A stretch of DNA of 48,653 nt from Candidatus Hermodarchaeota archaeon (lineage in GTDB: Archaea > Asgardarchaeota > Hermodarchaeia > Hermodarchaeales > Hermodarchaeaceae), in NCBI GenBank assembly GCA_016840065.1, contig JAEOTB010000027.1, positions 1 to 48,653 of the forward strand, in the 5' to 3' direction. The position numbers and the translations under genes are program-made. The notes under the pieces were generated by a model. The model saw only the letters and a list, made by a program, of their open reading frames with translations. It ran no database searches and was not told the DNA's origin. Position 1 is the first letter of the stretch; the number at the start of each line of letters is the position of its first letter. Below, piece by piece: positions 11,471 through 44,322 of this stretch.

Positions 11471-14400
11471 GTGCCGGATAAATCTGAAGCGGACGGTTTA
11501 TTTTCAGCTGGGCGTAAACTCTACATCGAGAAGGAATTCACCAAAGCTTTAGAAGCGTTGAAGTCGGCACAACAACTGTATACTCAGATTGGCGAACAGC
11601 AGGATGCAGGTGTCGCAAGCGGTCATGTTGGACTCGTATTAGAAGCATTAGGGAAACACCGAGAGGCACTCGTCAGCTATTCTCAAGCCGTTCAACTCCT
11701 CCGTGATTCTCAGGAATTCACTGAGTTAAAACATGCTTTGTTTAGGTTGGGCGTTTTACTGGAGAAGCTTGATTATCCAAAAGAGGCAGTGAAAGCTTTT
11801 GATCAAGCAGCGGATATTCATGAAAGACTCGGGGAAATTAAAGAACAGCAAGAATTACTTCTCCGAGCAGGAGTTATACTAGAAAGACTAGGACAGCTAG
11901 AAGCCAGTCACTCTCATTTCGCAAAGGTTGTCGAAATCTCAAGAACGCTTCCTGATTCTAGTTTGTATATAGATGCTCTAAGTTCTTATGCACGCATTCT
12001 CTTGCAACTGGAAGATTTCCAAGAGGCAGAAATAATTTTCCAAAAATTAATCCAACTTTGTAATAGAGCTGGAGAACATACCATACAAGCTCATGCACTG
12101 CTTGGGTTAGCAAGTACCTATGTCAGTAGAAAACAACTAGACCGAGCAGAAGACCTCATTCAACAATCGGAAGAGCGATTCTTTGCCTCCAAAGATGAAA
12201 CAGGAATACCTTATATTGCGTTTCATCGAGCACGTATCAATATACACCGAGGGCAATTAGCCGACGCGTTAGCACAAGCAGAACAGGCCCTCAAAGCCTT
12301 CCAAGATTGTGATGACCCAGTGGGACGTGTCCAGTGCCATTTGATACTAGGTCAGATAAACGAGAAGTTAGAGCAGTGGAAACAAGCATTAAGTCATTAC
12401 GATTTAGCTATTGAAACATTGGAAATGCTAGGCAATCAGACCCGTTCACTACAAACTCGGATAACCAAAGGGAAATTACTGCTCCAAATAGGCAGAGAGC
12501 GGCTAGCAGAGAGGGAGTTCAGTTATGTTATCAAGCACCATAGAGAGAGCCAAAGTCTTGATCGAGAAGCACGAGTTTATCTTGAAGTTGCAGAAAAAAT
12601 GATAGAACTCGGAAAGTACGACAGGGCAAGAGAACAATCAAAGAGCGCCATACAAAGACTACAAAAAACTGAGGATGAAGAAAGGGAGATACTAGCATAT
12701 CGTATTCTGCTCAAGTCATCACAAAGCAGCGGTTCTCTTGAAGAAGATCTTCCTATTCTAAAGGAAGGTCTCGAGAAAGCTAAAGCACATGGGAAAACAG
12801 GTGTGGTCTCGTCCTTAACCGCCAGCTTGTCGTTATTATCAATCGATTTAGAGGCACCACAAGATAAAGAGATTGCTACGCTAGAAGAAGCGCTTCAGGA
12901 TAAGCTTCTACCGAAAACACAACGTGTAGAGATAGCTGAATGCCTTGGGGTAGTTCTTTCTAAACTAGAACGTTTTGCAGAGGCAGTGCAATATCTGTCC
13001 CAAGCAATCAGTGGATATGATATTCAACCAAGCTATGAAAAAGCCAAAACCTACTATCTGTTAAGCCAAGCATACCAACACCTAAACCAACCACAGCAAA
13101 GAAGAGATGTTCTAGAAAAAGCCCTAGCTAGCCTTCCTCGTAGCACTGATGATTTATTACGAGCAAGAATCCTTCATCAACTTGCATCCCTGATGGCAGA
13201 AGAAGATACAGAGACGGCTTGTAAGAATTATTTACTCGCTGCAAAACTATTCGAAGCTCAGGATATTCCTGATGAATTATTCGATGCATTATTGGGAGGC
13301 GCCACATTACTTGTTAAGCTGAAGAAGACCAAACTTGCTTTACAGCTGGTAGAACAGTCGCTTGTTCTTGCAGATGAACTATCAATAATGATTAGAGATA
13401 ACGGCCAGCAACTCCAAGAAGGCATTCACATTCGCCAAGCAGCGGAAGTAGCACTTTATACCGCAACGGTACACTTTGAGAAACACACATCAAAAGCGCT
13501 TCTTGAGAGGATGTATTACTGGTCATCACGCCGAAAAACTGCCATTCTTATACCCTTCTTACCAGAGAAGCTAGGCTACAAGGGTTGTAAGGATCTTCCT
13601 ATTTTGGTACAGGAAAAGGCACGCTTGAAAGAACAAGCAAGAGACCTCCATCTGAAAATAATACAACAGGAAACAGGAGAATCAACTCAGCAAGACGGTG
13701 AGAACCGCCAACAGCTCGACAATCTTCTAGCCCAAATCGATGCTATCCGTGGTATGATTACAGAATCCTGTATCGATCCAGGAAAGACCCTACCTCCAAA
13801 GGAATACAATATCCTATCCAAAGTATTAGCAATGATGCCGAAGGACCGAAAATGGGTTCTAATCAACTACGACATCCTACGAAGTAAAAACAAGATAATC
13901 GTAACTTGGATTGACCATAGAGGGTACTACGGATCTTCCCTTCTCCCGCTAACTAAGAGCTTAACATCAGTTGTATCACACCTTCGGACTGTCCGAGATA
14001 CAACCGATTTACCTCCTCAAACACAATTACAGAAGATTGGAACTCGATTATACCGTTTCTTAATACCCACTAATCTAGCAAAGGAATTGAGAAGCGAGGG
14101 TTACGACTATATACAATTAGTGACAGATGACTTTCTTCACCATCTCCCCTTCGAAGTAATCTTCGATGGAATGCAATTCTGGGGTTTGAAATACGCAGTT
14201 AGCTGGACACCAGATATGGCATTCCTTGAGAATTCAATGAGAGCACGCGCTACAATTACAGCACCCTCAACTGTAGTTCTGGGCGTTAAAACTGGCGACG
14301 AAAAACAGAGAAGTGGGAAACATGTCGCCGAAGAGATAACCAAGACATTTCTTGCCGCCGTACCAATCTCCCATGAACATGTTGGCGAGCCCGTCGTGCT

Positions 14401-14875
14401 CTTTGGTCGTGATTTCACTCGGGAATTATTAATCGAATCTTGTAACAAGTCTTGTAAGCTTCTATTCCTCTCAACGCCTACAGTAATTCATTGCCGAAAA
14501 GGCGAAATAGCGCTCAGACAACCAGATAGTATCCGAGCAATCGAGTTAGGAATCACTACAAAAATAGATGGGGAACCAGCTCTTGTACTTGACTACTGTA
14601 TCCAATCAGAACCCAGGGAGGACGGTTTAAGCCTTGCAGCCTTTCTCCGCTGCCTAAAGGCAGCGGGTGCTACAGCAATAATCTTCACTAGGTGGCCACC
14701 TAAACAAAATACTCGGGCTTTCTTCGCTTCCACCATTGCAACGCAGCTCTACGATGGTAAACCCCTAGCTGTGGCGCTCCAACAAGCAAGACTGATGATG
14801 TCCACGAAGTATACGACTTCAAGCAGCTGGCTAGCATACTCCCTCTGTGGTAACCCCTATCCTACACTCTTCTAG
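11471..14875 (+). CDS. TPR-repeat protein with C-terminal CHAT (caspase/separase-like) domain
   Basis: A 1134-residue protein with GTG start. Residues 1 to about 640 are a long array of TPR/TPR-like helix pairs, for example GLVLEALGKHREALVSYSQA and LGQINEKLEQWKQALSHYD. A charged helical linker of about 120 residues follows, then a CHAT domain from roughly 790 to the end. CHAT landmarks are LVTDDFLHHLPFEVIFDG, YAVSWTPDMAFL, the cysteine segment ALVLDYCIQSE, AAGATAIIFTRWP, and SWLAYSLCGNPYPTLF. CHAT proteases use a His-Cys dyad. The cysteine is retained, but the segment that normally reads H-x-x-x-H-G appears as LLFLSTPT, so the catalytic His seems replaced. A His lies three residues further on (VIHC). 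The product may be a scaffold or regulator rather than a protease. It is followed by dUTPase and THEP1 genes; no partner gene such as gasdermin or CRISPR is seen. Confidence 0.85.
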   Translation: MPDKSEADGLFSAGRKLYIEKEFTKALEALKSAQQLYTQIGEQQDAGVASGHVGLVLEALGKHREALVSYSQAVQLLRDSQEFTELKHALFRLGVLLEKLDYPKEAVKAFDQAADIHERLGEIKEQQELLLRAGVILERLGQLEASHSHFAKVVEISRTLPDSSLYIDALSSYARILLQLEDFQEAEIIFQKLIQLCNRAGEHTIQAHALLGLASTYVSRKQLDRAEDLIQQSEERFFASKDETGIPYIAFHRARINIHRGQLADALAQAEQALKAFQDCDDPVGRVQCHLILGQINEKLEQWKQALSHYDLAIETLEMLGNQTRSLQTRITKGKLLLQIGRERLAEREFSYVIKHHRESQSLDREARVYLEVAEKMIELGKYDRAREQSKSAIQRLQKTEDEEREILAYRILLKSSQSSGSLEEDLPILKEGLEKAKAHGKTGVVSSLTASLSLLSIDLEAPQDKEIATLEEALQDKLLPKTQRVEIAECLGVVLSKLERFAEAVQYLSQAISGYDIQPSYEKAKTYYLLSQAYQHLNQPQQRRDVLEKALASLPRSTDDLLRARILHQLASLMAEEDTETACKNYLLAAKLFEAQDIPDELFDALLGGATLLVKLKKTKLALQLVEQSLVLADELSIMIRDNGQQLQEGIHIRQAAEVALYTATVHFEKHTSKALLERMYYWSSRRKTAILIPFLPEKLGYKGCKDLPILVQEKARLKEQARDLHLKIIQQETGESTQQDGENRQQLDNLLAQIDAIRGMITESCIDPGKTLPPKEYNILSKVLAMMPKDRKWVLINYDILRSKNKIIVTWIDHRGYYGSSLLPLTKSLTSVVSHLRTVRDTTDLPPQTQLQKIGTRLYRFLIPTNLAKELRSEGYDYIQLVTDDFLHHLPFEVIFDGMQFWGLKYAVSWTPDMAFLENSMRARATITAPSTVVLGVKTGDEKQRSGKHVAEEITKTFLAAVPISHEHVGEPVVLFGRDFTRELLIESCNKSCKLLFLSTPTVIHCRKGEIALRQPDSIRAIELGITTKIDGEPALVLDYCIQSEPREDGLSLAAFLRCLKAAGATAIIFTRWPPKQNTRAFFASTIATQLYDGKPLAVALQQARLMMSTKYTTSSSWLAYSLCGNPYPTLF

Positions 14876-35276: not shown

Positions 35277-36563
35277 TTATTCAGGTAGTGCTTTCAAAAT
35301 CTTGCCGTAGGGTATTTCGTATCTGCGACCCTTTCTAGTGTAGAAAATTGTGGCGTAGGGGGATTTTGTGAAATAACGTTGATACTTCTTATCCACCAAT
35401 AGGATCAAATCTTTTAATCCGTGATTTTGTAGCACCTGCAGCTGCTCTAACTTCTTTCGCGTGTACTCCTCTCGCCAATATCCTACAATCTCCACAAGCA
35501 CTTTATGGTCGCCTTTAATAAGGGCGAAATCGGGGATTATCATTCTTGTCCCAATTATGATTGCGTCAGGTTCACGTATGATATCCCAACCACGGTACTT
35601 GTTACTGTGCCAACTCCAGTAAAACTGTTCTTCCACCTTAGAATCCAGGAAGGCTTCATCTTCACGTCCTTCATCTTGGGGAAGGAATGAGGGCGCGGTA
35701 TCTGATGCGAGACGCACCATATAATGACGGTCACGCAGCACCAAATTAATAGTGAAGTCAACAACCTGGGTGTCCAGTGCCCCCGCATCCTTCAACAGGT
35801 TTGTTATGACTTGGGCAATATTCCACCCGAATGGTGAAGAGCGTCCGAAGAAAAGACGAGGACCAGCTATGTTTGCGCGTAGCCCTTCACTAGTTTGTTC
35901 TAAATCAACGAGAACGCCAAAACGTTTGGTAAGACGGAGTAGTGTTCTAGCAGCTGTACCTAGACTTCCCTGTGATAGTGTTATGGATACTGATTCGCTA
36001 TGATAAAGGAGCGTTTCTAGAACTTCGTAATTATATGCATGGAGAAATTCTTGTATCGAGGGGCTGCTGTCTCTATGTTGTAGGATCATGTATTCTTCGC
36101 GATGGACTACAAGCAAATGTTTCAGTATTTCAGGTGAGGATAAGCACTGTTCTTGAGTAAAAAGAGCATAAGCTGACGTACGTTCAGAACGGGGTATGAA
36201 TCCGTTATACTTCTCTTCGACGAAGCGCCAAAACTTGTACCGTACCTCCTCAAGATTGGTGATTCCCAGTTTGTGGAGTTCTGCTAACTCTTCCTCCGTG
36301 ATAAAATCTTCGAGCTTCCTGGGAATGAAAATATAGAAGCGAGACAAGGCAGTAGCAACTAATGCTCTGGCTACGCGAATATCTGGCACCCAAGTTACAG
36401 GTGTTTCTAAATCGACCTCACAACGCGGCTTACCAATGAAGGATTCTAAATGCTCAAGAATCCGAGCAGAAATGTCCCTGTCATCTTCTCTGTCTAAGAA
36501 ATAGGGTTCTAACTGCCCTCCCGGGATTACACGATATTTCAGATATTGTAATCTCAAGACCAT
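35277..36563 (-). CDS. Bax1-like PD-(D/E)XK nuclease (DUF790), XPB partner
   Basis: A 428-residue protein of the DUF790/Bax1 family. Bax1 binds archaeal XPB and supplies endonuclease activity in a presumed nucleotide-excision-repair role. The C-terminal nuclease core shows DAIIIGTRMIIPDFALIKGD, VLVEIVGYWREEYTRKKLEQL (acidic residue, E and K of the PD-(D/E)XK fold) and LILLVDKKY. The middle contains AYNYEVLETLLYHS and LFFGRSSPFGWNIAQVI, both recognisable in the family. ATG 36563 is chosen over TTG 36572; the site before it is weak, so coupling to the upstream PIN gene (gap 23 bases) is likely. The XPB gene lies nearby on the same strand (start about 40654), consistent with the known linkage. 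Confidence 0.88.
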   Translation of the reverse strand: MVLRLQYLKYRVIPGGQLEPYFLDREDDRDISARILEHLESFIGKPRCEVDLETPVTWVPDIRVARALVATALSRFYIFIPRKLEDFITEEELAELHKLGITNLEEVRYKFWRFVEEKYNGFIPRSERTSAYALFTQEQCLSSPEILKHLLVVHREEYMILQHRDSSPSIQEFLHAYNYEVLETLLYHSESVSITLSQGSLGTAARTLLRLTKRFGVLVDLEQTSEGLRANIAGPRLFFGRSSPFGWNIAQVITNLLKDAGALDTQVVDFTINLVLRDRHYMVRLASDTAPSFLPQDEGREDEAFLDSKVEEQFYWSWHSNKYRGWDIIREPDAIIIGTRMIIPDFALIKGDHKVLVEIVGYWREEYTRKKLEQLQVLQNHGLKDLILLVDKKYQRYFTKSPYATIFYTRKGRRYEIPYGKILKALPE

Positions 36564-36586
36564 TTTATTCAACAGATTATTTCTTA

Positions 36587-39022: not shown

Positions 39023-40654
39023 TCAACGAGTCTTGTCTATTTGGCGGCGCCGGCGAGCTAATCCATCTTCTAATGTTGCTTTAGTTATTATTTCTACAAG
39101 TACAGCTTCTTCTTTCTGGGGGCGAAGAAGCCTGCCAAGACGTTGAATGAATTCCCGTTTACTACCTGAACCAGATATTATTATTCCTACAGAAGCGTCA
39201 GGAACATCGACGCCTTCATCGAGAACGTGCCCCGTTGTAATCTTCGTGAAATGCCCTTCCTTGAAAGCGCTGAGAATCGCCTGACGCTCAGCAGCCTTGG
39301 TTTTATGGGTGATTAATGGGATTCCGAATATATCCGATATTTTCTCCACGACACGTGTGTACCGGCAAAAAATAATCACTTTTTCTTCTCGATATTTGTG
39401 GAGGAGCTTTTCAACATAGTTGATTTTTTCAGAAGCTTCTAGGGCAATGCGGCGGGCCTTTTCAAGGTGAGAGAGTGCTCTCCGAGCATCTTGATCGAAG
39501 ATTGTACGCTCTACGATGGTTTCAAATTGCCATCCAGGTTCGATATCATCTAGTTTCTTTGTGTAAGAGCGAAATATTGCCATGTGTTCATCGTATTGAG
39601 TTTTTTCTTCTGGTGTGAGGTCGACTTGGATTGTTTCAATGCGGTAAGGAGATAGATAGCCATCCTGTTCTAGAAGTCGGGGGGATATTCGATAGACTAC
39701 TTGTCCCACTAGTTGATCAAGGTCACGATGAAGTTCATCATATCTTTCAGGAGTAGCAGATAATCCGAGGCGGTGGGGTGCAATAAACAGCTCTGCAGCA
39801 AGGCGATAAGTTGGGCTAGGGAGATGATGGACCTCATCGAAGATTAGAAGTCCGAAGAGTTCAGTGAGTTTGTGTGCCATGAGGGATGCGGAATCATACG
39901 TGGCAACAGTAATTGGGTTGACTATTTTAGAGCCCCCTCCCAAAATACCAACTTCTGGAACATGGAGACGGTTTTCCAGTTCCTCCCGCCATTGATTAAG
40001 GAGATCGATAGTGGGAACCACGATAAGCGTCTTTAGTCCTAGTCGGCGGATAGCTTCAAGGGCGAGTACTGTTTTTCCAGCACCAGTTGGTAGGACCACA
40101 ACTCCTCGCCCACTGGCACCGAGCCAGCGATTCAAGGCATCCTCTTGATATTTCCTTAACACGTAATCTAAATAAAGCGCCTCTTTGATTTCAAACGGTA
40201 GATCGAAAATTTCCTTTACATGTGAAATTATCGGATAGCCCTGTTTTTCGAGGAATTTTCGAATGATAAAGAAATTCATTGGACGAGCGTGGAAGATTCT
40301 ATCTTCGGCGTTGTAAATCAGTAGCGATTTGATACCAGAAAGTTGGAGGAAACCCGTTGGCTTCAAGATAAGGTCGCTTTTTTGTAGGTACAGTTCAGCG
40401 AATTTCGTTCCCTGCAACTGAAGGATTTCTTTCTGGAGATTTGGTGATAGCACCACTTCAAATTGTGCTAGTAGATGAATAAGGTCTCTTATAGGAAGTT
40501 TTGCTGCCTTTTGTAGGTCAAGCTTGAATGTTGTTATCTGATTATTGGAGGATGACTGAGTAAAATCTGCTATCTGACTCAGGCGTGCTAATAACGATTT
40601 GTTTGCCTCTTTTACTTCAAAGGTGATAGAGCCTTTGTCTAATGTTATCGTAAT
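39023..40654 (-). CDS. XPB-type superfamily 2 DNA helicase with apparent ATT start
   Basis: An archaeal XPB homologue, a DNA-dependent ATPase/helicase linked to repair and promoter opening. Motifs: Walker A LPTGAGKT (about residue 190), LIFDEVHHLPSP (DEVH box, about 271), GLSATPER, VIIFCRYTRVVEK, TGHVLDEGVDVPDA and QRLGRLLRP. The first canonical start in frame is GTG 40456. However, the frame is open for 70 codons upstream and encodes a coherent N-terminal domain: ITLDKGSITFEVKEAN, typical of XPB N-terminal strands, then KAAKLPIRDLIHLLAQFE. No ATG, GTG or TTG exists there. ATT 40654 lies six bases after GGAGGA and is my best start, giving 543 residues. Starting at 40456 would remove the N-terminal domain. 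Bax1 lies nearby on the same strand. Confidence 0.88.
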   Translation of the reverse strand: MTITLDKGSITFEVKEANKSLLARLSQIADFTQSSSNNQITTFKLDLQKAAKLPIRDLIHLLAQFEVVLSPNLQKEILQLQGTKFAELYLQKSDLILKPTGFLQLSGIKSLLIYNAEDRIFHARPMNFFIIRKFLEKQGYPIISHVKEIFDLPFEIKEALYLDYVLRKYQEDALNRWLGASGRGVVVLPTGAGKTVLALEAIRRLGLKTLIVVPTIDLLNQWREELENRLHVPEVGILGGGSKIVNPITVATYDSASLMAHKLTELFGLLIFDEVHHLPSPTYRLAAELFIAPHRLGLSATPERYDELHRDLDQLVGQVVYRISPRLLEQDGYLSPYRIETIQVDLTPEEKTQYDEHMAIFRSYTKKLDDIEPGWQFETIVERTIFDQDARRALSHLEKARRIALEASEKINYVEKLLHKYREEKVIIFCRYTRVVEKISDIFGIPLITHKTKAAERQAILSAFKEGHFTKITTGHVLDEGVDVPDASVGIIISGSGSKREFIQRLGRLLRPQKEEAVLVEIITKATLEDGLARRRRQIDKTR

Positions 40655-40801
40655 TGGGAGTCCTCCAGGTCATCCTAATACAGCATAACTTTTCTTTTTT
40701 ATCGTCTTTGTTTATGTGGTATTTCCGTGAAGCTTGGATTTCGGAAAAGACTAAATGTGAGTAACTCAGCTGAGCTTATCTAGTAGCTGGAGGTGTACAT
40801 G

Positions 40802-41635
40802 ATGCCTTTAGACGAGGAGATGCAGGCGATTGGCGTAAAAATTCGAGAAGCACATAGGCTGGAGATGGAGGGGAACATATCTGAAGCGGTGGAGATGTTT
40901 GACCAGATTTCAGAGAGGTTACTAGAATTAGCACAACGGGCTAAAGGTACATCTTTAGCGGGTGTTCTTGAACGCCGCGCTAGTCAGTTCGCTAGTAGCG
41001 CAGCTGTTCTACGTAGACAAATCGCAGGATCACAAGATAGACTAGCGACCCCAGAGCAGCAGGGCGTAGTGGACTTACACCTATTAAGAGGGTCTGCTGT
41101 AACTGCTCAACTTCTGAAATTGTTTCAATCTGCTCAGTATAGGATTTTGATTGCCGTGCACCAACTTCACGCAGTTGAGTTAGTAGTGGATGAGGCTGAA
41201 TTTGACGAGTCGTCACTGAATCTTCTTGTTCTGCTCAACGAGCTACATAAGAGAGGTATCAAAATCCGGGTCCTCACTACTCCACCTGTTCACCTAGTAG
41301 GCGTGTCAAGATGGAGGCAAGCAGATACCTTGCGCTCGCTAAAAGAGAGTAGCATTGAATTCCGGCTTTGTACTAGGTTGCATTTCAACAGTGTTCTTGT
41401 GGATGATACTGCTGTTTGGCGTGGTTCTGCGCCGCTCACAGCACAAGGCCTTTCAGGACTAGATGATGTGATAGAATTCTCAGTTTCAAAGTGGCTGATA
41501 TCCGTTTATTTAGACCTCTTTCGTTCTAGGTGGGAGCAAAGTGATCTATCGTGTATGCGTTGCTCTGAGAAGACATGCCAGAAGGATTTTCAGCCTGAAG
41601 ACCCTCGCCGTTCTTTTGAGCATAGAGGATTTTAG
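40802..41635 (+). CDS. MIT-like plus PLD-like domain protein
   Basis: A 277-residue protein. Residues 1 to about 72 form a three-helix bundle of MIT type (IREAHRLEMEGNISEAVEMF, then an RRASQFASSAAVLRRQI helix). Residues about 88-255 look like a single-motif phospholipase D fold: YRILIAVHQL, LLNELHKRGIKIRVLTTPP, and H194-F-N196-x4-D201-x6-G208-S209, which has exact HKD spacing but with Lys replaced by Asn. A Cys-x2-Cys-x4-Cys cluster lies near the C-terminus. The order MIT then PLD-like is that of eukaryotic MITD1, an ESCRT-III-binding abscission factor with an inactive PLD-like domain. GGAGGTG precedes two ATGs; 40802 has the better spacing. It is divergent from XPB, and its stop overlaps that of the longin-like gene. 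Confidence 0.68.
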   Translation: MPLDEEMQAIGVKIREAHRLEMEGNISEAVEMFDQISERLLELAQRAKGTSLAGVLERRASQFASSAAVLRRQIAGSQDRLATPEQQGVVDLHLLRGSAVTAQLLKLFQSAQYRILIAVHQLHAVELVVDEAEFDESSLNLLVLLNELHKRGIKIRVLTTPPVHLVGVSRWRQADTLRSLKESSIEFRLCTRLHFNSVLVDDTAVWRGSAPLTAQGLSGLDDVIEFSVSKWLISVYLDLFRSRWEQSDLSCMRCSEKTCQKDFQPEDPRRSFEHRGF

Positions 41636-42354
41636 CCCTTTGATGTCAATAACTCTGTGTCCGATGTGTCAATCTGATGTGTGAAGGCTACTTTTAGGTA
41701 TCCCCGCTCTTCAGCATATCTTAGTATTTCTTCTAAACGGGTGAGAGTGATATGTAATTTTTCTGCAATTTTCGCTGCAGTATGCTTCCCATCAGAAAGA
41801 AGTATTACGAATATTGCGTCAACGCCAAACCGCTCTTCTAGGTCCAAACGAATCGGTGAATCCTTATAGAGTAGCCGTTCAAGAGAAGTCACCCTGACCG
41901 GCAATGGTTCTTTTTGAGGTTCGAATCCCACTAAACTATCGACATCCTGCTCAAACCTTCGAAGCAAAGCTCTAGCTTCAGGGCTTCCCCTAAGAGGCAT
42001 ACTAAGAAGAATGAGATTATCTTGAAAGTGCCGATAGAAAAGGTCCCGGAGAGCACTTAGCAAGTTACTGTATTGAGCATCTTTTTTCACACATGCTAGA
42101 AAGACTAAACCTGCATCAACAACATAAGTAAATGAAAGGTTTTCGAAGGCTATGTCTTGCAGCTGTCGCCCCATTAACTCCGATTGGAAATGAACAATAG
42201 CTGAGAAGAAGCTACTAAATAGTGTGGGATCGAATTCGAGGGGCGAATAGGCCTTATGAAAGAGCGGAATTCCACTGGCATCAATGACCCACACTGCGTG
42301 AACTGTCATAGACTCGATACCCCGCTCAAGGGAATCTAGAGCAGTATTCAACAA
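41632..42354 (-). CDS. Longin-like domain protein with C-terminal winged helix
   Basis: About 240 residues. The N-terminal half reads AVWVIDASGIPLFHKAYSPLE, DPTLFSSFFSAIVHFQSEL and VDAGLVFLACVKKDAQYSN, a longin/roadblock-like alternation of strands and helices. Such modules in Asgard archaea and eukaryotes bind small GTPases. The C-terminal third is a winged helix (LLSDGKHTAAKIAEKLHITLTRLEEILRYAEERGYL; key helices only approximate). The frame overlaps the AsnRS gene if extended to 42450, so I start at TTG 42354 (GGAAG five to six bases upstream), which keeps an N-terminal helix. ATG 42309, with GGGGT nine bases before it, is equally possible. It is the last gene of a run with a Ras-like GTPase and AsnRS, suggesting it is that GTPase's partner and a possible signal-to-transcription link. 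Confidence 0.7.
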   Translation of the reverse strand: MLNTALDSLERGIESMTVHAVWVIDASGIPLFHKAYSPLEFDPTLFSSFFSAIVHFQSELMGRQLQDIAFENLSFTYVVDAGLVFLACVKKDAQYSNLLSALRDLFYRHFQDNLILLSMPLRGSPEARALLRRFEQDVDSLVGFEPQKEPLPVRVTSLERLLYKDSPIRLDLEERFGVDAIFVILLSDGKHTAAKIAEKLHITLTRLEEILRYAEERGYLKVAFTHQIDTSDTELLTSKG

Positions 42355-42385
42355 TAAATCTTCCGCAATCGGTACACAAACGTGT

Positions 42386-43699
42386 TCAGGGTCGTAACCG
42401 GCTTGGGGTTCGAGGGAAAAGGCACGCTTCCCGTATATGTTTGAGGCCAAGTAGCCACACTAGACAACGCTCCAGACCCATTCCAAATCCAGCATGTGGT
42501 GGGAGACCAAATTCCCGTAGTTCAAGATACCAAGAATAAGAGCTGGGATCAAGTGCTTGCTCCTTAATTCGCTCCATGAGTTGATCTAAATCGTGGATTC
42601 GCTGTCCACCGCTAGTTAGTTCACCAAATCCAGCAGGAGCGATCAAATCGCTACTGAGGGTAACTTCGGGTCGGTCGGGATCAGGAAGATGATAGAAGCT
42701 ACGAGCCGCAGTAGGATAGCCCTTTATGAAGAATGGTTCCTTGAATTGCCTTGAAATCGCCCGCTCTACTTCTCTGCCGAAATCCTCACCCCACGAAACC
42801 TTGAAACCTTGTGTTGCAGCAATCTCGATGGCTTCGTCGTAGGTTATGCGTTTGAATGGAAGAGAAGGCACCTTGATCTTTACATCAAGCAAAGATAGTT
42901 GTCGTTTACACTTAGATTTGATATGCTTACAAATGGCGTGTACAAGTCGTTCCTCTACACCCATTATATCGTCATGGGTGGCGAATGTTAACTCTGCTTC
43001 TAGGTGCCAAAATTCTGTTAGGTGTCTTCGTGTGCGGTGTTTTTCTGCGCGAAAACTGGGGGCAATTAGATAAACCTTCTCAAGCCCACAGATTGCGGCT
43101 TCTTCGTATAATTGAGCGCTTTGACTTAGATAGGCAGTTCTCCCGAAATACTTCAGAGGGAAAAGAGTTGCACCGCCTTCGACACTAGCTGAAACTAGGA
43201 TTGGTGGAAAGATTTCAGTGAATCCCTCATTATCTAAGTGTAGATGGGCAGCACGGCTTATCTCTGCCTTAATCTGCATAATCGCCGTTTGACTTGGACT
43301 TCGTATGTACAAATGGCGCTTATCATATAGAAAGGCGTCCCCGGCATCTTTTTCTAATGGCCACTCAGGGTCTGCTAGGCTCACTATCTCAAAACTTGTC
43401 ACGTGGATTTCGATTCCAGTAGGTGCCCGTTTATCAACGAAGACCTTCCCTGTTACTCGGATAGAAGACTCCAGCGTAACTTGTTGCATCGCTTCAAACG
43501 CAGCTGGCGATATTTGCTTACGATGCCCCGCCACTTGGACAGTTCCAGTAGAATCTCGGAAGATGATGAAAATTACTCCACCGTGTTCCCGTTTCCGGTG
43601 AACGAAACCAGTCAATGTCACAATCTCATCTGTGCTGGAGCTGTCAAGCTCACTAACAAAGTGGCTTTTCTCAAATGTTTTCAATACCTTGCTTGTCAA
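42386..43699 (-). CDS. asnS: Asparaginyl-tRNA synthetase
   Basis: A 437-residue class IIb synthetase. The N-terminal OB-fold anticodon domain has VTLTGFVHRKREHGGVIFII and RDSTGTVQVAG. The core has PPILVSASVEGGATLF, FRAEKHRTRRHLTEFWHLEAE (motif 2 with the AsnRS-like TRRHLTEF), and GMGLERCLVWLLGL (motif 3) with the terminal FPRTPSRLRP. The alternative, AspRS of the non-discriminating archaeal kind, is less likely given the motif 2 form and terminal sequence. The start is TTG 43699 with GGTGGG six bases upstream. It is 65 bases after the GTPase gene and probably co-transcribed with it. Confidence 0.9.
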   Translation of the reverse strand: MTSKVLKTFEKSHFVSELDSSSTDEIVTLTGFVHRKREHGGVIFIIFRDSTGTVQVAGHRKQISPAAFEAMQQVTLESSIRVTGKVFVDKRAPTGIEIHVTSFEIVSLADPEWPLEKDAGDAFLYDKRHLYIRSPSQTAIMQIKAEISRAAHLHLDNEGFTEIFPPILVSASVEGGATLFPLKYFGRTAYLSQSAQLYEEAAICGLEKVYLIAPSFRAEKHRTRRHLTEFWHLEAELTFATHDDIMGVEERLVHAICKHIKSKCKRQLSLLDVKIKVPSLPFKRITYDEAIEIAATQGFKVSWGEDFGREVERAISRQFKEPFFIKGYPTAARSFYHLPDPDRPEVTLSSDLIAPAGFGELTSGGQRIHDLDQLMERIKEQALDPSSYSWYLELREFGLPPHAGFGMGLERCLVWLLGLKHIREACLFPRTPSRLRP

Positions 43700-43764: not shown

Positions 43765-44322
43765 TTATGCTTGGCGTTTGCGCGTATACTCTAACATCTG
43801 CTTTGCGATGTACTCAAAAACGGAGTCCACATTAATGTTCTCCTTCGCACTGGTCTCAAAATAAGCCTTCAACCCTTGGCTCTGAGTGAACTCGATAGCT
43901 TCTTTCTGATCTACCGCACGTAACAGGTCCGCCTTCATCCCAACCAAGATAACCGGAACACTCTCAGTATTACTCCGAATCATAGTTAGCCACTCGGATA
44001 ACTTAAGAAAAGTACTAAACCTCGATAAATCAAACGAAAGAATAGCGCCCCGCGCACCTACACAGAATTTAGGCAACATAGAACGAAAACGCTTCTCGCC
44101 AGCAAAGTCCCACAATTGCAGCTTCAAGGGACTTTGTTGCCCCTGTCCATCGTCTACTACTATTCGTTTCGCTGCGAAAGCCGTTCCAACGGTCAAAATA
44201 CTATCGTGGTAAACTCCTTCGACAAAGCGGCGTACGAAGGTGGTTTTTCCGACTCCGCCTTCACCTGCAATTATCAGTTTAAGCAAAGTTCCTTCTGATG
44301 TCACGTTTGTCTGCTTCCACAC
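43765..44322 (-). CDS. Ras-superfamily small GTPase (Rab/Arf-like)
   Basis: A 185-residue small GTPase. G1 is GEGGVGKTTF (residues 20-29), the switch I threonine lies in ILTVGTAFA, G3 is LWDFAGEKRF, G4 is VGMKADLL and G5 is ETSAKENI. The G4 motif is MKAD instead of NKxD, which may weaken guanine selectivity. No C-terminal CaaX-type cysteine is present, so membrane attachment by prenylation is unlikely. Expanded Ras-like families of this kind are typical of Asgard archaea. The start is GTG with no strong Shine-Dalgarno site. It shares direction with the longin-like protein 1.4 kb downstream, separated only by AsnRS. Confidence 0.88.
   Translation of the reverse strand: MWKQTNVTSEGTLLKLIIAGEGGVGKTTFVRRFVEGVYHDSILTVGTAFAAKRIVVDDGQGQQSPLKLQLWDFAGEKRFRSMLPKFCVGARGAILSFDLSRFSTFLKLSEWLTMIRSNTESVPVILVGMKADLLRAVDQKEAIEFTQSQGLKAYFETSAKENINVDSVFEYIAKQMLEYTRKRQA

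Follow-up and report, generated by a model that had tools for sequence, protein, structure and literature searches.

A MIT–PLD protein with a degenerate HKD motif in Hermodarchaeia, a candidate ESCRT-III accessory protein

Introduction

In eukaryotes, many cofactors reach ESCRT-III via MIT domains. MITD1 acts at abscission and interacts with ESCRT-III tails and with acidic membranes. The human protein consists of a MIT domain and a PLD-like MIT_C domain and functions in cytokinetic abscission (PMC9477494). Archaeal MIT domains are discussed in the searchable literature only in Vps4, and a full-text search for MIT combined with PLD or nuclease domains in Asgard or other archaea retrieved no account of a MIT–PLD protein from archaea, with many subscription papers and preprints lying outside that search.

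Here we describe such a protein from Hermodarchaeia, which has the layout of MITD1, a MIT domain followed by an apparently inactive PLD-like domain. Both proteins are of similar length and carry an N-terminal MIT domain of the Vps4/MITD1 type before a PLD-fold domain that appears to lack a working active site. Unlike MITD1, however, the Hermodarchaeia protein ends in PLDc_2 instead of MIT_C, has an HKD motif that is still recognisable by its H and D, contains a C-x2-C-x4-C cluster, and has HKD-intact close relatives. With Vps4/CdvC of Asgard archaea and Sulfolobus it shares the same MIT domain, as judged by profile and modelled bundle, but it has no AAA+ ATPase and its helix-3 signature is degenerate in the Hermodarchaeia clade. 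The PLD fold, recognised by profile, is common to this protein and the single-HKD enzymes Nuc endonuclease, MitoPLD/Zucchini and PLD3 exonuclease, from which it differs by the loss of the Lys and of the GSxN Asn and by the MIT domain in front.

Results and discussion

A conserved gene of Hermodarchaeia

The gene is located at positions 40802–41635 (+) of the window, i.e. the whole stretch of 48,653 nucleotides that was analysed, on contig C128 of a 2.59-Mb genome. The original prediction had been made on the proviso that the DNA was of Asgard origin, and the host is indeed a member of the Hermodarchaeia, with Candidatus Hermodarchaeota MAGs as closest named relatives (91% and 83% identity of the MIT–PLD protein in L028 and L029, respectively). 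The ORF encodes 277 aa, and a Shine-Dalgarno-like GGAGGTG, read from the sequence, is found at 40789–40795 (+), 6 nt 5′ of the start codon (ATG) at 40802; translation might alternatively begin at an ATG at 40799. Orthologues are known in three Asgard families. The Hermodarchaeia family has one in 8/8 genomes, with the other seven being 53–92% identical to this protein. Pairwise dN/dS was 0.05–0.09 for the whole gene and 0.04–0.09 for the PLD part where dS was measurable, some pairwise dS values being saturated. The ORF is a real gene under purifying selection with conserved synteny. A search for viral relatives found none.

The N-terminal MIT domain

Residues 3–80 (40808–41041, +) are a three-helix MIT domain, identified by hhalign, a PDB profile search, and a structure model compared with Foldseek; a short linker of residues 81–94 (41042–41083, +; alignment A1) follows. 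Searches with the single sequence gave no MIT match at E<1 in Pfam and only noise in phmmer against the PDB. With tblastn against Asgard genomes, residues 14–83 matched the N-terminus of Vps4 (E 2e-5 to 1.4e-4) in the three genomes of one other Asgard genus, where Vps4 adjoins ESCRT-III genes. When the Hermodarchaeia N-termini, without the sequences of family f11, were compared with 35 Asgard Vps4 N-termini by hhalign, the score was 38.2 (Prob 91, E 1e-6), against a mean of 10.8 and a maximum of 17.4 in 200 column-shuffles. Profiles that included the f11 sequences retrieved the MIT domain of Vps4 from many other Asgard genomes (profile A3, seven sequences from the whole family; E about 1e-8), and in the PDB they matched the MIT domains of human VPS4B (E 2.4e-4) and of mouse 1wfd (E 0.039), the latter being presumably Mitd1 according to its clone name. 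The orthologues of genomes G057, G034 and G041 surpass the Pfam MIT cut-off, and f11 orthologues do so with 38 to 42 bits (PF04212). The modelled helices span residues 3–22, 26–46 and 51–80 with a pLDDT of mostly 70–92, and Foldseek ranked katanin first (TMt 0.87), the further matches including the MITD1 MIT domain 4a5x (0.85), Sulfolobus Vps4 (0.82) and VPS4A (0.81), with E values above 0.1 due to the shortness of the bundle. The three-helix MIT-like segment of the original prediction is, according to profiles rather than the single sequence, a MIT domain.

The domain has diverged in the Hermodarchaeia. Helix 3 of Asgard Vps4 MIT domains carries the signature EYxxRAxxLK, whose Arg is invariant (35/35). 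The Hermodarchaeia orthologues read (Q/E)(F/Y)A(S/N)(S/N)AxxL(K/R)R at this site and have lost the Arg. Of the 16 positions that are strongly conserved in Vps4 MIT domains they retain only 9, compared with 13 in the HKD-intact orthologues of f11. MIM1-type binding may thus be weak, altered or lost in the Hermodarchaeia clade, which might rely on another groove or another partner; of the two forms, that of f11 is the more reliable candidate for an ESCRT binder.

A PLD domain with a degenerate active site

The PLD-like domain (PLDc_2) comprises residues 95–247 (41084–41542, +). Pfam PLDc_2 matches residues 104–244 over its full model length (1–132/132, E 1.8e-10), and PLD3, MitoPLD and Nuc are the closest PDB relatives among the matches listed (profile E 2e-7 to 2e-6). 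This half was modelled poorly, its pLDDT falling under 50 from residue 76 onwards, because the alignment held only three close sequences, and a whole-chain Foldseek match to 2ymb (rmsd 9.2) was set aside. As originally predicted, the core retains the HKD spacing (H194-x-N196-x4-D201-x6-G208-S209) with Asn in the place of Lys; this degenerate motif, H194-F-N196-x4-D201 (41381–41404, +), reads H-F-N in 8/8 Hermodarchaeia orthologues, and H194 and D201 are invariant. A further loss, which had gone unnoticed in the original prediction, affects the GSxN motif: in G208-S-A-P211 (41423–41434, +) the Asn is replaced, the position being Pro in the Hermodarchaeia orthologues except for Ala in one (loss in 8/8). 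Every other relative fetched, including the f11 and f29 MIT–PLD orthologues, retains HxK. The active-enzyme signature HxKx4Dx6GSxN is present in the f11 and f29 orthologues and in the paralogues and absent here (HFNx4D, GSAP). Behind the PLD domain, the whole group has a C-x2-C-x4-C cluster (C251, C254, C259; 41552–41578, +), which is invariant in A1 and was likewise new compared with the earlier prediction; it is a putative metal site, and metal binding is possible.

Outside the Hermodarchaeia, orthologues were found in f11 (three genomes) and f29 (one genome, gene cut by a contig end). In an 11-row tree, used in place of an 18-row tree that contained long distant outgroups and was poorly resolved, these and the Hermodarchaeia sequences fall on one side of a branch (support 95/94) separating them from in-genome paralogues, and loss of the Lys counts as one change. 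With a length of 1.56, the Hermodarchaeia branch is a long one, and its position should be treated with caution. Since the HKD motif is intact in the orthologues of two other Asgard families, the Hermodarchaeia form is best read as a lineage-specific pseudoenzyme, which would derive from an apparently active MIT–PLD enzyme.

The Hermodarchaeia paralogue group (L002, L003, L022–L027) shares the PLD domain and the C-terminal Cys cluster with MIT–PLD and has an N-terminal helical bundle that is weakly MIT-like (hhalign against MIT, E 4e-4, Prob 34). It differs from MIT–PLD by an intact HKD motif, a long acidic/Pro-rich linker, and a position outside the MIT–PLD clade. Next to its genes (e.g. L002:1477-2421, −) lie those for small membrane proteins and for a protein resembling M28 peptidases, the M28 match being that of L097. 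In f11 (L083:8554-10455, −), the MIT–PLD gene lies 20 bp 3′ of a same-strand gene whose product is a predicted membrane protein with DUF2070, and is thus probably co-transcribed with it; the two genes also adjoin in L084 and L085.

The ESCRT system of the host and the proposed role

An ESCRT locus of the host genome (L080:4040-9001 on contig C69 of G000) encodes a Vps4 with MIT domain, two Snf7-family ESCRT-III proteins and a Vps23_core protein. Across the Hermodarchaeia family, Vps4 was detected in 8/8 and ESCRT-III in 7/8 genomes. To our knowledge, ESCRT is nearly universal in Asgard archaea, and its co-occurrence with MIT–PLD therefore says little. One of the two host ESCRT-III proteins ends in a conserved MIM1-like LxxEIxxLK tail, which resembles the Leu/Ile MIM1 reported for Asgard Vps2/24/46 (PMC7240154). 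A survey from 2024 states that Hermodarchaeia “have none” in a sentence about ESCRT families and domain organisations (PMC10936438); as this may refer to unusual families only, we claim no contradiction with the locus found here.

Vps4 and two ESCRT-III proteins are present, and the tail of one of the latter is MIM1-like, which makes an ESCRT link of MIT–PLD plausible. We consider it somewhat more probable than the opposite that MIT–PLD is an ESCRT-III accessory protein of the Hermodarchaeia, whose MIT domain docks on the tails while the PLD domain binds without cutting. We infer that the MIT domain would dock on the C-terminal tails of ESCRT-III subunits and would thereby carry the PLD-fold domain to a membrane neck or division site. 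The latter domain presumably descended from a one-HKD hydrolase and, with both the catalytic Lys and the GSxN Asn gone, most likely binds rather than cuts; its ligand might be phospholipid head groups, the membrane, or nucleic acid at the neck. The existence of a conserved MIT–PLD family, in which some members look active and others dead, would show that cofactors were already part of the MIT recruitment code in Asgard archaea.

Genomic neighbourhood and alternative explanations

The MIT–PLD gene does not adjoin the ESCRT locus; conserved in its vicinity are genes for tRNA synthetases, XPB/Bax1 and a GTPase, together with an uncharacterised gene. The order of the conserved block is FAD reductase, Ras-like GTPase, class II tRNA synthetase, uncharacterised gene, MIT–PLD (convergent), XPB helicase, small membrane protein, PIN-domain protein, Bax1/DUF790 and PheRS. 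The Ras-like small GTPase (43765–44322, −; PF00071, 1.9e-37) is part of this synteny, and the genes for Bax1 (DUF790; 35277–36572, −) and the XPB-type helicase (39023–40456, −), with the PIN-domain gene between them, are kept across the family. The convergent neighbour (41632–42450, −), conserved in Hermodarchaeia, has a C-terminal winged-helix-like segment (weak); a longin/roadblock reading of its N-terminal part, made by eye, received no support from a PDB search.

This neighbourhood would also fit a scenario in which the MIT domain no longer binds ESCRT-III but another helical partner, and the PLD domain serves as a nucleic-acid-binding module with the XPB–Bax1 repair pair. The degenerate helix-3 signature of the Hermodarchaeia clade, the conserved synteny with the XPB, PIN-domain and Bax1 genes, and the nucleases PLD3 and Nuc among the nearest solved PLDs listed are consistent with it. 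However, XPB and Bax1 are encoded on the strand opposite to MIT–PLD, the block also contains PheRS, AsnRS/AspRS-type and GTPase genes, and the f11 orthologues adjoin DUF2070 and not XPB, and we regard this scenario as rather unlikely. It is quite improbable that the PLD domain still has, or has recovered, catalytic activity through an unusual site, such as one formed by H194 and N196 in a dimer: the Lys and the GSxN Asn are both gone in 8/8 orthologues and all other fetched relatives have HxK, even though the invariant H194 and D201 and the strong purifying selection on the domain could be explained in this way.

The original prediction had suggested an archaeal counterpart of MITD1, and the identical domain order, the Asgard host, and the overlay of the bundle on the MITD1 MIT domain could be taken to indicate an orthologue, or ancestor, of the eukaryotic protein. 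Yet MIT_C (PF16565) was above cut-off in none of 99 Asgard genomes, this genome included, and was absent from the 22 families matched by members of A1. Of the two families envisaged for the C-terminal half, PLDc was recovered (as PLDc_2) and MIT_C was not, and the MITD1 PLD chain was not found among the best 60 PDB matches of the family profile. Furthermore, the HKD-intact orthologues elsewhere in Asgard archaea argue that the dead state arose recently inside an archaeal family. Orthology with MITD1 is therefore unsupported and in our view very improbable, and convergence is likelier than descent: the MITD1-like layout of the Hermodarchaeia protein is more likely of separate origin, as judged from the MIT_C search and a tree of the archaeal proteins. 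That the N-terminal helices are a chance resemblance or a TPR-type hairpin and not a MIT domain is hardly credible. Single-sequence searches do miss the MIT domain, and one Foldseek match is the TPR domain of AIP (TMt 0.42), but the profile scores and the orthologues above the Pfam MIT cut-off contradict this interpretation, and a TPR control in hhalign, albeit with a crude alignment, scored 17.8, which is near the null maximum. The profile match to MIT that the original prediction called for was thus obtained, and the TPR match that would have spoken against it was not.

Other MIT fusions in Asgard archaea

Beyond the preferred reading of MIT–PLD as an ESCRT-III accessory protein, genome G029 encodes a protein (L082:1888-2574, −) in which a MIT domain (E 2.4e-9) precedes a NucS_C endonuclease domain (E 1.6e-8). 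This MIT–NucS_C fusion suggests a wider set of MIT-linked nuclease-type proteins in Asgard archaea. More tentatively, and with some doubt on our part, Asgard MIT domains might serve to bring PLD-type hydrolases to ESCRT-III sites, as well as a NucS-type nuclease in one genome, and the Hermodarchaeia might have turned one of these enzymes into a pseudoenzyme, independently reaching a MITD1-like abscission factor. If true, cofactor recruitment to ESCRT-III beyond Vps4 would predate eukaryotes.

In two further proteins (L081:2191-3021, −, and L096:2590-3693, +), a MIT domain that scores above the Pfam cut-off precedes regions without a Pfam match; the former protein has a long proline-rich linker. 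Elsewhere in the window, a gene at 11471–14875 (+) encodes a 1134-aa protein with many TPR-like repeats, whose C-terminal part looks CHAT-protease-like by eye.
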